A stretch of 64,000 nt of DNA from Archangium gephyra (GTDB taxonomy: Bacteria; Myxococcota; Myxococcia; Myxococcales; Myxococcaceae). The position numbers and the translations under genes were made by a program. Of this stretch, positions 25,908 to 31,410 are shown piece after piece; position 1 is the stretch's first letter; each line of letters starts with the position of its first letter. The stretch lies in the NCBI RefSeq assembly GCF_001027285.1, contig NZ_CP011509.1, positions 11,432,501 through 11,496,500 on the forward strand, written 5' to 3'. Below the pieces are notes generated by a model that did no database searches, was not told the origin of the DNA, and worked only from the letters and a program-made list of their open reading frames with translations.

Positions 25908-27476
25908 CTACTCCGCGGGAATCGTGAGGGCCCGCAGCACGCGGTTCTCGCCCACCTGGATGCGCAGCAGGAGCACCGCCCCAGGCTTCTGGGCCTTGAC
26001 GACCTGGGCGAACTCGCGCGGGTTGCGCACCTGCTTCCCCCCGGCCTCGACGACGACCATGCCGGGCATGAGGCCCGCGCGGTCTGCGGGAGAGCCGGGG
26101 TCCACGGCGACAATCATGGCGCCCTGCCGGACACCCGGGGCCATGCGCGGATCCACGTCCTGGAGACGCAGGCCCAGCTTGCGGCCGGTGTCCTCCTCGC
26201 GGCCCTCTTCGGGGGCCGTGCCGTTGCCCTCGAGGTCCGGACGCTCGCCGAGCTTCACCTGCATCTCCTGCTGCTTGCCGTTGCGGAAGACGGTGAGCTT
26301 CACGGTCTCATCGGGCGGGCGGAAGCCGATGTCGCGGGTGAGGCCGCGCGAGGACTCGACGGGCGTGCCGTTGATGGCGGTGATGACGTCATCCTGCTTG
26401 AGGCCGGCCTTGGCGGAGGGGGTGCCCTCCTGCACGTCGGTGACGATGGCGCCCTTGCGAGCCGTCACGTTGAGCGCCTGGGCGAGCTCCGGCGTCAAAT
26501 CCTGCACCGACACGCCCAGCCAGCCGCGGCGGATCTTCCCCTTCTGCAGCTGGGGCAGGAGCGCCTTGGCCATGTTGGAGGGGACGGCGAAGCCGATGCC
26601 CGTGCCGCCGCCGACGATGGCGGTGTTGATGCCGATGACCTCGCCCCGCATGTTGAAGAGCGGCCCGCCCGAGTTGCCCGGGTTGATGGCGGCATCCGTC
26701 TGCAGGAAGTTGTCATAGGGACCGGCCTGGATGTCGCGCGCGCGGGCCGAGAGGATGCCGGCGCTGACGCTGGAGGTGAGGCCGAACGGGTTGCCGATGG
26801 CCACCACACCATCGCCCACGCGGATGTCGTCCGAGTTGCCGAGCCGGGCCACCGGGAGGTTGTGGACGTTGCCCTGGAGTTGGAGGAGGGCCAGGTCGGT
26901 GAGCGGATCCCTCCCGAGCACCTTGGCGTCGAACTCGCGGCCGTCGTTGAGACGGATGCGGATGTCGATGGCGTTCTCCACCACGTGGTTGTTGGTGAGG
27001 ATGAGCCCGTTGGGGTCGATGATGAAGCCGGAGCCCTCGCCCTGCTGGACGCGCTCCTCGGGCATGGCACCGGGAGGCATGCCCGGACCTCCGGGTCCGC
27101 CAGGCTGCCCACCGAAGAAACGCTCGAAGAGATCACCCGGCATGCCCTCCATGGCGGGGGCGCGCGCCTGGACCTGCACGTTGACGACGGTGTCATTCAC
27201 CGCCTCGACGAGGTCCGCGATGGACTGCATGGGCCCCGAGCCGCCCACCGCCGCGGGCTGCTTGGGAGCCGGCTGAGCCTGCTGGGCCTGTCCGGCGCCG
27301 CCCGTGCCCGGTGCCTTCTCCTCGGAAGGAGCCGCCGGAGCGCGGGCCTCGGGTTGCGGAGCGGCGGGGGCGGGTGCCGGCTCCCGGGTACGGGCCTCAC
27401 ACCCGGTGGCGACCGCCAGCATGAGGGCATTGAACACGATGAACTGCTGCCAGAAGGCCGAGCGGGCGTACTTCAT
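25908..27476 (-). CDS. HtrA/DegP-type periplasmic serine protease, lipoprotein
   Basis: The protein has 522 residues from the ATG ending at 27476, with GGAGG 10 nt upstream. The N-terminal AVATGC lipobox puts the lipid on Cys26; a Pro/Ala-rich linker follows. The trypsin-like domain has the full triad: His164 in TNNHVV, Asp194 in DLALLQL and Ser269 in NPGNSGGPL. Two PDZ domains follow (GWLGVSVQDLTPELA and LGLRLQDVDPRMAPG). It should degrade or refold misfolded envelope proteins. The lipid anchor is less common than a cleaved signal in this family. It lies downstream of the two MuiA-family genes, all on the minus strand. Confidence 0.95.
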   Translation of the reverse strand: MKYARSAFWQQFIVFNALMLAVATGCEARTREPAPAPAAPQPEARAPAAPSEEKAPGTGGAGQAQQAQPAPKQPAAVGGSGPMQSIADLVEAVNDTVVNVQVQARAPAMEGMPGDLFERFFGGQPGGPGGPGMPPGAMPEERVQQGEGSGFIIDPNGLILTNNHVVENAIDIRIRLNDGREFDAKVLGRDPLTDLALLQLQGNVHNLPVARLGNSDDIRVGDGVVAIGNPFGLTSSVSAGILSARARDIQAGPYDNFLQTDAAINPGNSGGPLFNMRGEVIGINTAIVGGGTGIGFAVPSNMAKALLPQLQKGKIRRGWLGVSVQDLTPELAQALNVTARKGAIVTDVQEGTPSAKAGLKQDDVITAINGTPVESSRGLTRDIGFRPPDETVKLTVFRNGKQQEMQVKLGERPDLEGNGTAPEEGREEDTGRKLGLRLQDVDPRMAPGVRQGAMIVAVDPGSPADRAGLMPGMVVVEAGGKQVRNPREFAQVVKAQKPGAVLLLRIQVGENRVLRALTIPAE

Positions 27477-27594
27477 CGAGGGGCATCCTCCCTTCGTGGG
27501 AAGATGCGGACCCCCCGCCGACTGACAACCACACGGCACGAAGGAGCGGACGGGGCGGAGAACCCTCGGCCGCCTCCTCCCCCACCCTGGGAAC

Positions 27595-29163
27595 CTACAG
27601 CCCCTGCATGTCGTAGCTGGAGGGCACGTCCACGTGGAAGGCGAGGTCCACGGAGCGCTGCTCGGAGGGGTCGAGCGTCAGCTTCCAGGTGACGATGCCA
27701 TCCATCGCCTCGACCGTGTGGCCGGAGCTCGTCTTCTTGGCGTCCAGCTCCACCGTCACGTCATCGAGCTCGGAGACGGGGATGTGCTCGGCCACCTCCA
27801 CCACCTCGGGGCGCTGGCGGTAGTTGGCCAGCTTGAAGCGGTAGGCGTAGTGGAAGCGGCGCCGGCCGCCGAAGAGGCCCTCGTCGCGGGCGATCTCCTG
27901 CACCACCACGCGCTCCACGCGCAGCGACTCCTCGAGGCCGAAGGTGAGCTGGAAGGCACCGCCCTGGGGCACCTGCTCCAGGTGCTGGCGGCCGATGAAG
28001 CCCGAGGCGCGGAACATGTCCACGGGGCCCGGCAGCAGCGGGAAGGGCGCGCCGTTGACGAGGCGGGCCACGCGGAACACCACCGGGTGCAGCTTGGGCA
28101 CGGTGCGCCAGACGAAGGAGGACTTGAGCTTCGTGCGCGCCACGCGAAGCCGCACGGCCGAGCCCTCTCCGGGCACCTGGGCCAGCTCGGGCACCAGCAG
28201 CTGCACGGAGATGCCCTGCGAGGCCGCCTGCAGCGCGCCGTCCGTCTCCCCTGGCGTCTGCCCTCCGGCCTGGGCGTGCTGCTGCACCTCGTCGCGGCGG
28301 ACCAGCACCTTCTTCTCGGGGCGGCGCTCCCAGGCCTTCAGCGTGAGGGGCCTGAGCTCCGGCGGCGTCGCGTTGTCGCGGGGCCGGGCGGTGGAGAGCG
28401 CCAGCCGCACCCCGCTCCAATCCTCGCCGGTGGACTGGCTCACGGTGGCGAAGGAGGAGAGCTCCACCTGGCCCGCGGCCTCGTCGGCGCGCGCCTCGTA
28501 GGAGGGCGTCCACCCCGCGCCCCCCACCACGTATTGCAGCTCCACGCGGGCGCGGCCCTCGGAGGGGCAGGCCAGCCGCACCTCCACCCGGCGCTCCATG
28601 CGCGCGGCCGAGGCGGAGAGAAAGGACTCCCGGCTGCGCAGCGAGTCCAATTCCCGCTGCACCTCGCGCATGCGAGCGACCCGGGAGGACAACTCGGAGG
28701 CGGCGCGCAGCCGGGCGTCCAGCGCGGTGTCGAAGGCCTGGGTCCACGCGCGGGCATCCGGCTTGGGCTCGGTGAGCTCGCGCGCCACCCGCTTCACCGT
28801 CACCTCGGTGAGGCTCTCACCGAGCTGCTGCAGCGACTGGGCACGGGCGCGGGCGTCCCCCAGCTCCACCATCTCGCGCTCCAGCGTCTCGCGCTTCTTG
28901 CGCAGCGCCTCCAGCTCCGGGCTGAACTCCGCCTGGCGCGTGCGCTCCTCGGCCACGAGGCTCTCCACGGTGGCGTCCTCGGAGCGGGCGCGGAAGCTGG
29001 CGGGGTCGGCCGCGGGCGGCACGGACTCGAAGACGGCGAGCGGGCGGCCGGTGCAGGCCACCGTCTCCACGCGCGTCACCAGGGCGCGGTCCGGGTAGAC
29101 GACGACGGAGGACACCTTCGCGGGGGCGGCGAGCGCCAGCATCATCAAGGGCAGGGTGTGCAT
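27595..29163 (-). CDS. MuiA-family (DUF4140/DUF4139) secreted protein
   Basis: The protein has 522 residues from the ATG ending at 29163, with GAGGAG 5 nt upstream. The signal peptide MHTLPLMMLALAAPA precedes VSSVVVYPDRALVTRVETV, the DUF4140 N-terminal domain. A long coiled coil follows (about 80-190), then the DUF4139 beta-rich domain (GGAGWTPSYEARAD, TGEDWSGVRLALSTARP). The family is named after an E. coli gene said to inhibit mucoidy; biochemical function is unknown. It starts 12 nt after the stop of a longer paralogue (29176-31410), so the two form an operon. Confidence 0.9.
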   Translation of the reverse strand: MHTLPLMMLALAAPAKVSSVVVYPDRALVTRVETVACTGRPLAVFESVPPAADPASFRARSEDATVESLVAEERTRQAEFSPELEALRKKRETLEREMVELGDARARAQSLQQLGESLTEVTVKRVARELTEPKPDARAWTQAFDTALDARLRAASELSSRVARMREVQRELDSLRSRESFLSASAARMERRVEVRLACPSEGRARVELQYVVGGAGWTPSYEARADEAAGQVELSSFATVSQSTGEDWSGVRLALSTARPRDNATPPELRPLTLKAWERRPEKKVLVRRDEVQQHAQAGGQTPGETDGALQAASQGISVQLLVPELAQVPGEGSAVRLRVARTKLKSSFVWRTVPKLHPVVFRVARLVNGAPFPLLPGPVDMFRASGFIGRQHLEQVPQGGAFQLTFGLEESLRVERVVVQEIARDEGLFGGRRRFHYAYRFKLANYRQRPEVVEVAEHIPVSELDDVTVELDAKKTSSGHTVEAMDGIVTWKLTLDPSEQRSVDLAFHVDVPSSYDMQGL

Positions 29164-29175
29164 GGTGGCTCCTCG

Positions 29176-31410
29176 CTACTGCGACTGCTCCAGGCGCCAG
29201 CCCTTGGGGTGGCGGACGGTGTAAAGGAAGGACACCACCTTCTTCTCCGAGGGTGGCACCGTCAGGCGCCACACGAGCGTGCCCCGGGCCGGGTCCTGTT
29301 CGGCGTAGGGCTCGGTGCGCACCAGCTTCACCTCCACGTCCTCGCCGCGCGACAGCGGCCACTGGTCGTGCAGCTGCACCGGGAGGGGGAAGGGGTACGG
29401 ATTGGCCACCTCGAGGGTGACGAGGTACTCGGTGACGTCGTCCTTGCCGATGAGGCCCTTCTCGCCCGTCACGAGCTTCACGTTGCGCACCGGGCGCACC
29501 GCGGAGTCGATGCCCAGCGGCAGGGTGAAGGGCTCGCCGGGAGACACCAGGGTGAGCCGGGCCTGGCCGGCGGGGTCCGCGCCGACGAAGAGCTGCGCGT
29601 CTCCACCGGGCAGCACCTGGCGCGAGGGGCTGCGCAGCTCCGCCACCAGGAAGGCATTGGGCGTGAGCGCGGGGTACAGCTTGCGCTCCACCTGCACGGG
29701 CCACGTCTCGGTGAAGAGGGGCACGCGCCGCTCGCCCTTGCCGCTGAGCACCGTCTCGCGGCGCTGCGAGGGGAAGGCCAGCGCGTAGCCGCCCGCGAGC
29801 GAGGCGGGCAGACGCGGATCCACCACGGGCCGCCGCCAGCCCTCCGGCGGCGCGAGGCCCACGGGGGCCTCCACCACCTGGCTCGGCACGCTGCCGGGGG
29901 CGCTCTCGAAGGACCTCGCCGCACCGGCCTTGCCCCCGGGCCGGCTCGCCGGGATGCGCCGGACGAAGTCCTGATCGACGTTGACGCCGGTGCTGGTGGA
30001 GCCGATGTCGACCGTCGGCGGCGCGGAGACGACCGCGAGCTCATCCACGAAGCTCTCGGGAAGCAGCTCCACGTTCACCCGGAGGGTGCGATCCTGCCGC
30101 ACCTGGATCTCCGAGCGCATGAGCGGCTTGAACGACTCCTTGTCGAACCGCAACGCATAGACGCCCGGCGGGAGCTGGGGGATGCGGTACTGGCCCTGGG
30201 CATCCGTCACCACGATCTGCTCGCCCAGGAGGTTGGGCGAGGTGGCCGTGACGACCACGTCCGCCACGGGACTCTTCGTGTCCGCGGTCACGACGGTGCC
30301 GGTGATGGTGCTTTTGCCCGCCGAAGCCTGGGCCCGCGACCGGTCGTCCGCGTAGGACGGCACCGGAGCGGGGCCCGGCTGCGCGGGCGGGGTGGTCGCG
30401 GAACCGGCCTTGCCGATGAGCGAGAGCAGCCGGGCGCGCATCCGCAGATCCTCGTTGGGCGCCTCGGGGGGCTTGGGAGGAGCGGGCGGCGGGGCGCGCC
30501 AGGAGTCGGAGACGGAAGCGGGCGTGGGGATGAAGCGCTCGCGCTGGCCGATCTTCCAGGTGGCGAGCTCCGGCGCGAGGGTGGCGGTGGCGGGCAGGGC
30601 CGTGCTGAGCGTGAGCGCCGCGTCCTCCCAGTCCTCGCCGGACTCCTGGCTGACACGTCCGGAGAAGGCTACCTGCACGCGGTTGGACTCCGGCTCGAGC
30701 CTCAGCTCGTAGGCGGGGTACCAGCGCGCGTTGCTGGTGACATAGGTGAGGGTGAGCGTCGCGGAGCCCTGGCCCGAGAGGGTGGGAGCGACCTCCAGAC
30801 CCCGGCGCCGGGGCTCGCCACCGAGCCGGCGCGCTTCCTGGACGTTGCGGGACAGCTCCCTGTCCAACGCCTCCTCGCGTTGGGACACCTCGCGCAGCTT
30901 CGCCTGGAGGCGGGCGGTGGTCTCCACCACGAAGTCGGTGGCGGCGCGCCAGCCGGAGGCATCGAGCCGCGAGGGGCCCTGCGGTGTGCCCTTGGCGTTG
31001 GGAGGAGGAACGGAGGAGAGCTCCTCGTCCGTGACGGAGGGACGCACCTGGCCGAGCGCGGTGAGCTGGGCGGTGTAGGCCTCGCGCTCGGCGCGGACCT
31101 GGGCGAGCTGATCATCGAGCCGCTCCAGCTCGGTGACGAGCTTGCTGGCCACGGTGGCGGGGAGGGCCTCGGACTCGGCGGGGCGGATGTCCACCCGCGT
31201 CACCTCGGCGCCCTGGGCCTCCACGCGGATGGAGGCCGGGTCCACCGAGCCATACAGCAGGGGCAACTCCACGCGCTGGGTGCCGGAGAGGGCCACCCGG
31301 GCCGTACGCACCACCCGGGCCCGATCGCTATAGACGGTGACCGAGGTGACGGGCGCATCCACCGCCGTGAGCCACAGCGAGCTCAGGACGGACAGTCCAA
31401 TAACGGGCAT
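29176..31410 (-). CDS. MuiA-family protein with inserted carboxypeptidase-regulatory/TonB-receptor-like segment
   Basis: The protein has 744 residues, starting MPVIGLSVLSSLWLTAVDAP. It shares the layout of the downstream paralogue: DUF4140 (VTVYSDRARVVRTARVALSG), coiled coil, DUF4139 (NARWYPAYELRLEP, SGEDWEDAALTLSTALP). About 140 residues longer, it carries an insert at roughly 367-505. The insert begins with a CarboxypepD_reg-like repeat (STITGTVVTADTKSPVADVV, ITDAQGQ-type strand, LPPGVYALRFDK). It continues with VDIGSTSTGVNVDQDFVRR and ASRPGGKAGAARSFE, which resembles the N-terminal extension of myxobacterial TonB-dependent receptors. It ends with DUF4139 strands (EVANPYPFPLPVQLHDQWP). The chimera suggests interaction with the outer-membrane transport machinery, which is inference. 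Confidence 0.85.
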   Translation of the reverse strand: MPVIGLSVLSSLWLTAVDAPVTSVTVYSDRARVVRTARVALSGTQRVELPLLYGSVDPASIRVEAQGAEVTRVDIRPAESEALPATVASKLVTELERLDDQLAQVRAEREAYTAQLTALGQVRPSVTDEELSSVPPPNAKGTPQGPSRLDASGWRAATDFVVETTARLQAKLREVSQREEALDRELSRNVQEARRLGGEPRRRGLEVAPTLSGQGSATLTLTYVTSNARWYPAYELRLEPESNRVQVAFSGRVSQESGEDWEDAALTLSTALPATATLAPELATWKIGQRERFIPTPASVSDSWRAPPPAPPKPPEAPNEDLRMRARLLSLIGKAGSATTPPAQPGPAPVPSYADDRSRAQASAGKSTITGTVVTADTKSPVADVVVTATSPNLLGEQIVVTDAQGQYRIPQLPPGVYALRFDKESFKPLMRSEIQVRQDRTLRVNVELLPESFVDELAVVSAPPTVDIGSTSTGVNVDQDFVRRIPASRPGGKAGAARSFESAPGSVPSQVVEAPVGLAPPEGWRRPVVDPRLPASLAGGYALAFPSQRRETVLSGKGERRVPLFTETWPVQVERKLYPALTPNAFLVAELRSPSRQVLPGGDAQLFVGADPAGQARLTLVSPGEPFTLPLGIDSAVRPVRNVKLVTGEKGLIGKDDVTEYLVTLEVANPYPFPLPVQLHDQWPLSRGEDVEVKLVRTEPYAEQDPARGTLVWRLTVPPSEKKVVSFLYTVRHPKGWRLEQSQ

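Follow-up and report, generated by a model that had tools for sequence, protein, structure and literature searches.

How did the N-terminus of a TonB-dependent receptor come to lie inside an otherwise unrelated envelope-type protein, and does it do anything there? The question is raised by a MuiA-family protein of 744 aa encoded in the window analysed here, a stretch of 64,000 nucleotides from Archangium gephyra. We consider it almost certain that this long MuiA is one half of a conserved DUF4140-DUF4139 pair, that its variable loop received the N-terminus of an Oar-type receptor (extension, TonB box and plug start) about once, early in the core Myxococcaceae, and that the captured segment has since been partly overwritten by the oar gene of its hosts. 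Its most likely function, which we advance tentatively and at somewhat less than an even chance, would be to dock on the Oar-linked Ton machinery.

A split MuiA protein and its donor receptor

The long protein shows the MuiA domain order in Pfam, DUF4140 (E = 1.4e-14) followed by DUF4139 (E = 1.6e-45), and passes the MuiA family model TIGR02231 of NCBIfam with 269.2 bits against a curated cut-off of 112.6. The DUF4139 match stretches over residues 219-736, insert included, because a foreign stretch sits within the domain. The 522-aa neighbour carries both Pfam domains without the insert, which confirms the preliminary description of a DUF4140/DUF4139 protein with about 140 residues more than its neighbour; the receptor-derived module corresponds to residues 367-506 (window 29893-30312), so that the coordinates first proposed, 29877-30320, were right to about 16 bases. 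The long/short pairing is conserved across Myxococcota and was kept in 36 of the 38 loci fetched from named records. In its domains, its score and its pairing the protein is thus a regular family member, but its insert sets it apart: neither the neighbour, nor any of the genome's four other DUF4140 paralogues (the other two long ones included), nor the orthologues beyond the core Myxococcaceae have it.

Features of the long MuiA gene and its partner in the window
Feature	Residues	Coordinates	Strand	Basis
Long MuiA-family protein, 744 aa, Oar-derived module inside		29176..31410	(-)	ORF, Pfam, NCBIfam
Signal-peptide-like N-terminus	1-18	31357..31410	(-)	inferred from sequence
DUF4140	24-119	31054..31341	(-)	Pfam
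DUF4139, first part	about 203-296	30523..30804	(-)	Pfam, AF2
Oar-type N-terminal extension, CarboxypepD_reg transthyretin-like beta-sandwich	367-450	30061..30312	(-)	Pfam, AF2, fold match
TonB-box-like segment DELAVVSA	456-463	30022..30045	(-)	alignment to Oar
Truncated receptor plug start, PPTVDIGSTSTGVNVDQDFVRR...RSFES, predicted disordered	464-506	29893..30021	(-)	alignment, AF2
DUF4139, second part	about 520-736	29203..29853	(-)	Pfam, AF2
Short MuiA-family partner, 522 aa, 12 bp downstream of the long gene		27595..29163	(-)	Pfam

Export of the window pair, plausibly to the periplasm, is likely, because both proteins start with a hydrophobic, signal-peptide-like stretch, which the other two long/short pairs of the genome lack. 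Directly downstream of the pair lies a gene for an HtrA-like trypsin/PDZ protease with a lipoprotein-like N-terminus (25908-27539, minus strand); it was rejected as a conserved MuiA partner, the linkage being found in only 1 of the 38 loci. Literature searches returned nothing on the function of DUF4139, nothing on MuiA relevant to the 744-aa protein, and no report of binding by any MuiA protein. Among solved structures none is related by sequence to the short MuiA, and the fold matches of the MuiA core in the PDB were weak and were set aside.

The insert contains a CarboxypepD_reg extension, a TonB-box segment and a plug start in the same order as in Oar. The extension matches CarboxypepD_reg at residues 368-449 (Pfam, E = 1.3e-16), is predicted by AF2 to fold well over residues 367-450 (pLDDT about 87) and has a fold match in human carboxypeptidase D, to its transthyretin-like domain (2.0 Å, TM 0.88 by target). 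Residues 455-519 are predicted to be disordered, and the TonB box falls within this flexible stretch. The insert has no match to Pfam Plug, because it holds only the first ~40 plug residues. The receptor-like reading proposed initially is borne out for the extension in Pfam as well as in the predicted structure; the plug piece has neither a Pfam hit nor a predicted fold. An AF2 model of the extension plus plug fragment of Oar itself reached a pLDDT of 44 and was left unused.

A search of its 12.49-Mb genome with the module gave as best match elsewhere the N-terminus of a 1091-aa receptor, with 73% identity over 138 residues (E = 1.5e-65). This is far beyond chance and bears out the proposed capture of an Oar-type N-terminal module by a MuiA protein. 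A vWA/YfbK protein of the same genome matched at 67% over 111 residues, and three receptor paralogues at only 56-58%. The 1091-aa receptor has CarboxypepD_reg and barrel domains and adjoins, in divergent orientation, genes for ExbB, two ExbD and a TonB-like protein. In 14 further genomes the receptor that corresponds to it likewise has tonB/exbB/exbD as neighbours; the six other receptor loci that were checked, all of them paralogues, do not. The same neighbourhood is found in Myxococcus xanthus, where oar has adjacent tonB-exbB-exbD (PMC6434023), and by sequence and gene order we identify the donor as an Oar-type receptor with its own adjacent TonB system. In M. xanthus, Oar (MXAN_1450) is a TonB-dependent transporter for the secretion of PopC; its N-terminus binds TonB1 at the C-terminal domain, it loses function when E118 or I122 is changed, though not all of it, and its extension is not needed for PopC secretion (PMC6434023). 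D456 and V460 of the window copy align with these two Oar positions. Unlike Oar, the long MuiA lacks the complete plug, of which it has only about 40 residues, as well as the entire outer-membrane beta-barrel (22-stranded in Oar), having DUF4139 instead (Pfam, AF2), and its receptor piece lies midway in the protein.

Distribution and history of the fusion

A MuiA orthologue was found in 57 of the 96 genomes of the family. The extension is present, in frame and across several genera, in 24 of the 30 orthologues read, and the named carriers include Archangium, Hyalangium, Pyxidicoccus, Myxococcus and Citreicoccus. The search for the DUF4139-plus-insert fusion in other myxobacteria suggested by the preliminary description was thus successful, and the combination, of which that description knew no described example, is not unique: most core Myxococcaceae orthologues have the fusion, and vWA/YfbK proteins bear the same module. 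Two orthologues (L024 and L028) hold plug debris only, extension and box being deleted, and four (L026, L033, L036 and L043) have no module at all. The module is absent from those DUF4139 proteins of other Myxococcota families that were examined. A tree of the MuiA core, with the insert excluded, requires no more than three changes and fits one gain and two losses. These comparisons make the fusion a feature of the Myxococcaceae that arose about once and disappeared on at least two occasions. The comparison covered Myxococcota, and combinations of CarboxypepD_reg with DUF4139 in other phyla such as Bacteroidota would not surprise us.

In paralogues and outgroup orthologues the same loop is filled by unrelated disordered linkers, which outside the clade are plain and Pro/Ala-rich. 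These linkers, together with the two losses of the extension, lend weight to a serious rival of docking, somewhat unlikely in our estimate, according to which the DUF4139 loop is prone to accretion and an Oar fragment recombined into it drifts there as a tolerated passenger, only a harmless spacer. The in-frame persistence of the extension in most orthologues read, in several genera, speaks against such a passenger.

Other plug pieces, for example GYVVDGLS, are kept in L040, L092 and L126, for which reason the segment captured originally was probably longer than today's. In L115, a MuiA orthologue of a distant MAG, the same loop contains a plug fragment without extension that resembles the Oar of lineage g14 (L089), and an independent capture is possible. 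Since L115 has a plug piece without extension and other copies have extra plug pieces, Oar sequence may have entered the loop repeatedly. In L040 (G028, genus g5) the MuiA core nests inside the clade of genus g19 and the module still resembles the g19 Oar, which likely reflects horizontal transfer. This resemblance to the Oar of the donor genus argues against rapid co-evolution with the Ton system of the current host and indicates that a match to the host system is not tightly enforced.

The history of the module itself is different from simple descent. A single MuiA clade is rejected in the module tree (dlnL 145, AU p = 1.75e-7), from which L024 was excluded because its extension is lost, and is still rejected without the long or transferred rows (dlnL 137, p = 3.9e-5), ruling out one capture followed by purely vertical descent. 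By overall identity, 21 of the 24 MuiA modules have their nearest Oar within their own genus; the window copy is among the three exceptions (0.74 to own-genus against 0.76 to other-genus Oar). In genome G001, about 240 bp of MuiA and its own oar are 90-95% identical, a tract that is conversion-like; identity is 67-77% upstream of it and less than 50% past the module. Synonymous identity to the own Oar reaches 0.78 in this genome against a background of 0.63 and is mostly near background elsewhere, where a few further windows of high identity occur. Recent gene conversion everywhere is not supported on this ground, the excess being clear in G001 only, and the events in the other genomes are therefore old. 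Because the modules form no single clade, mostly track the Oar of their own genus and include the G001 tract, we conclude from the sequences that gene conversion or re-capture took place, either of which fits outside G001. Unrelated genes that repeatedly track the oar of the host lineage are a clear example of gene conversion or re-capture acting on a single domain across gene families. On these comparisons the capture is genuine, and we now know both its donor and its history.

Constraint on the module and its possible function

The captured parts are not conserved alike. At the position equivalent to E118, 23 of the 24 MuiA modules have E or D, and at that of I122 all 24 have V, I or L. The column majority of the box is 0.62 in MuiA versus 0.59 in Oar, and that of the plug start 0.49 versus 0.89, from which we conclude that the plug has been freed from constraint and the box pattern has not. 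The GVN..F.R.P stretch to which the preliminary description gave weight is indeed receptor-derived, but it belongs to a truncated plug start that is predicted to be disordered and is eroding in relatives, and is for these reasons unlikely to be a working part. The better candidate is the extension plus the TonB box, whose position, unnamed in that description, lies by alignment inside the captured segment.

The extension evolves with dN/dS below 1 in 5 of the 6 species pairs that were measurable. In genus g19, the MuiA box reaches an identity of 0.6-1.0 with an Oar of the same genus, and one pair gives a dN/dS of 0.21 for the extension and 0.07 for the box. In the window's genus the extension shows 0.5-0.8 versus 0.25-0.44 in the core parts, and the box 1.3-2.0, a noisy value from 12 codons only; the same species pair, G000 and G004, has an unchanged Oar box. 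The window box retains D456 and V460, yet its sequence diverges fast in this genus, and the window copy may be either drifting or adapting. The raised dN/dS in the window's genus and the eroding plug piece are what a passenger would be expected to display, but the values below 1 in most pairs, a box pattern without plug-like decay and the recurrence of the module on vWA proteins and alone are not.

Under the docking that we prefer, the exported MuiA pair would attach through the module to the Oar-linked Ton machinery. The extension would act as a folded spacer or binding domain, the flexible TonB box would add a beta-strand to the C-terminal domain of TonB1, and the plug fragment would be a leftover; MuiA would be a non-receptor client of TonB1-ExbB-ExbD or be positioned beside Oar at the cell envelope. 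We infer its export, its binding to TonB and any use of force. That extension and box are kept about as in Oar while the plug erodes supports docking but does not show it. Against it count the fast box of the window's genus, the deletions in L024 and L028, the dispensability of the Oar extension for PopC secretion, and the orthologues outside the clade, which presumably work with plain linkers. It seems very improbable that the MuiA box serves as a decoy, competing with Oar for TonB1 and so limiting Oar-dependent export: the donor is the same TonB-linked receptor and the box pattern is retained, but the box changes fast in the window's genus.

To our knowledge, TonB grips outer-membrane transporters and the bacteriocins that imitate them. 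Group B colicins are likewise soluble proteins with a TonB box, but they are toxins entering from outside, whereas MuiA is a putative resident envelope protein of the cell that owns the TonB. In the papers that our literature search found, no non-receptor protein with these domains is described as having a TonB box. We regard as unlikely the full proposition that an envelope protein that resides in the cell and is no receptor (and likewise the vWA/YfbK proteins with the same module) is truly a client of TonB1-ExbB-ExbD, held by a TonB box that was taken from Oar and that gene conversion keeps similar to the Oar of the host lineage. If true, a TonB box captured by a resident envelope protein and conserved in its pattern would mark out a new kind of TonB client. 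It would also provide a first partner to test for the MuiA/DUF4139 proteins, which have hardly been described, and would bear on Oar, the exporter of the PopC protease in myxobacterial development.

The same module on other proteins

The module recurs at the front of vWA/YfbK proteins and, on its own, in the form of small proteins that are probably secreted. An N-terminal extension followed by a TonB-box segment was seen in the vWA/YfbK proteins L019:5525-7564 (G000:C1, about 8568.5-8570.6 kb), L050-L054, L059 and L066-L068, some of which also hold plug residues. The module of these proteins (e.g. L019, L050 and L051) is as in MuiA, and several copies are closest to the Oar of their own host; unlike in MuiA, it is placed N-terminally, before the YfbK/vWA domains, and its TonB-box pattern is less well kept. 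The extension is maintained, several copies are without the box pattern, and E is found at the E118 position in 6 of 10.

This pattern recommends a further serious rival to docking, in our judgement a fairly improbable one, in which the extension would be a protein- or glycan-binding beta-sandwich common to Oar, MuiA and vWA proteins, acting as an adaptor without TonB, for example by pairing with Oar or a common partner, and the box merely came along. The extension is the sole confidently folded part of the insert (AF2), stand-alone extension proteins occur, and the vWA modules keep the extension though several lose the box pattern. The MuiA box, however, holds its pattern of acidic and alternating hydrophobic residues at the level of Oar, which would be needless for an unused tail. 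Membrane-tethered vWA proteins with a YfbK-like fold have been proposed as force transducers beside TonB and TolA (PMC12204202), and by analogy a link of the MuiA and vWA families to envelope force may be worth testing.

Some gene neighbourhoods of the module were also recorded. L051:4943-10102 contains an apparent operon of a vWA protein with the Oar module, a histidine kinase, a response regulator and a stand-alone extension protein of 121 aa, and in L056:4140-7179 (G001) three stand-alone CarboxypepD_reg proteins surround a beta-lactamase-fold/DUF3471 protein. Finally, in vWA genes such as L059, L067 and L055 the frame open before the start codon reads alike across genomes (RAEPRMRHDAGRIRMM-like), which suggests a conserved leader or promoter element.
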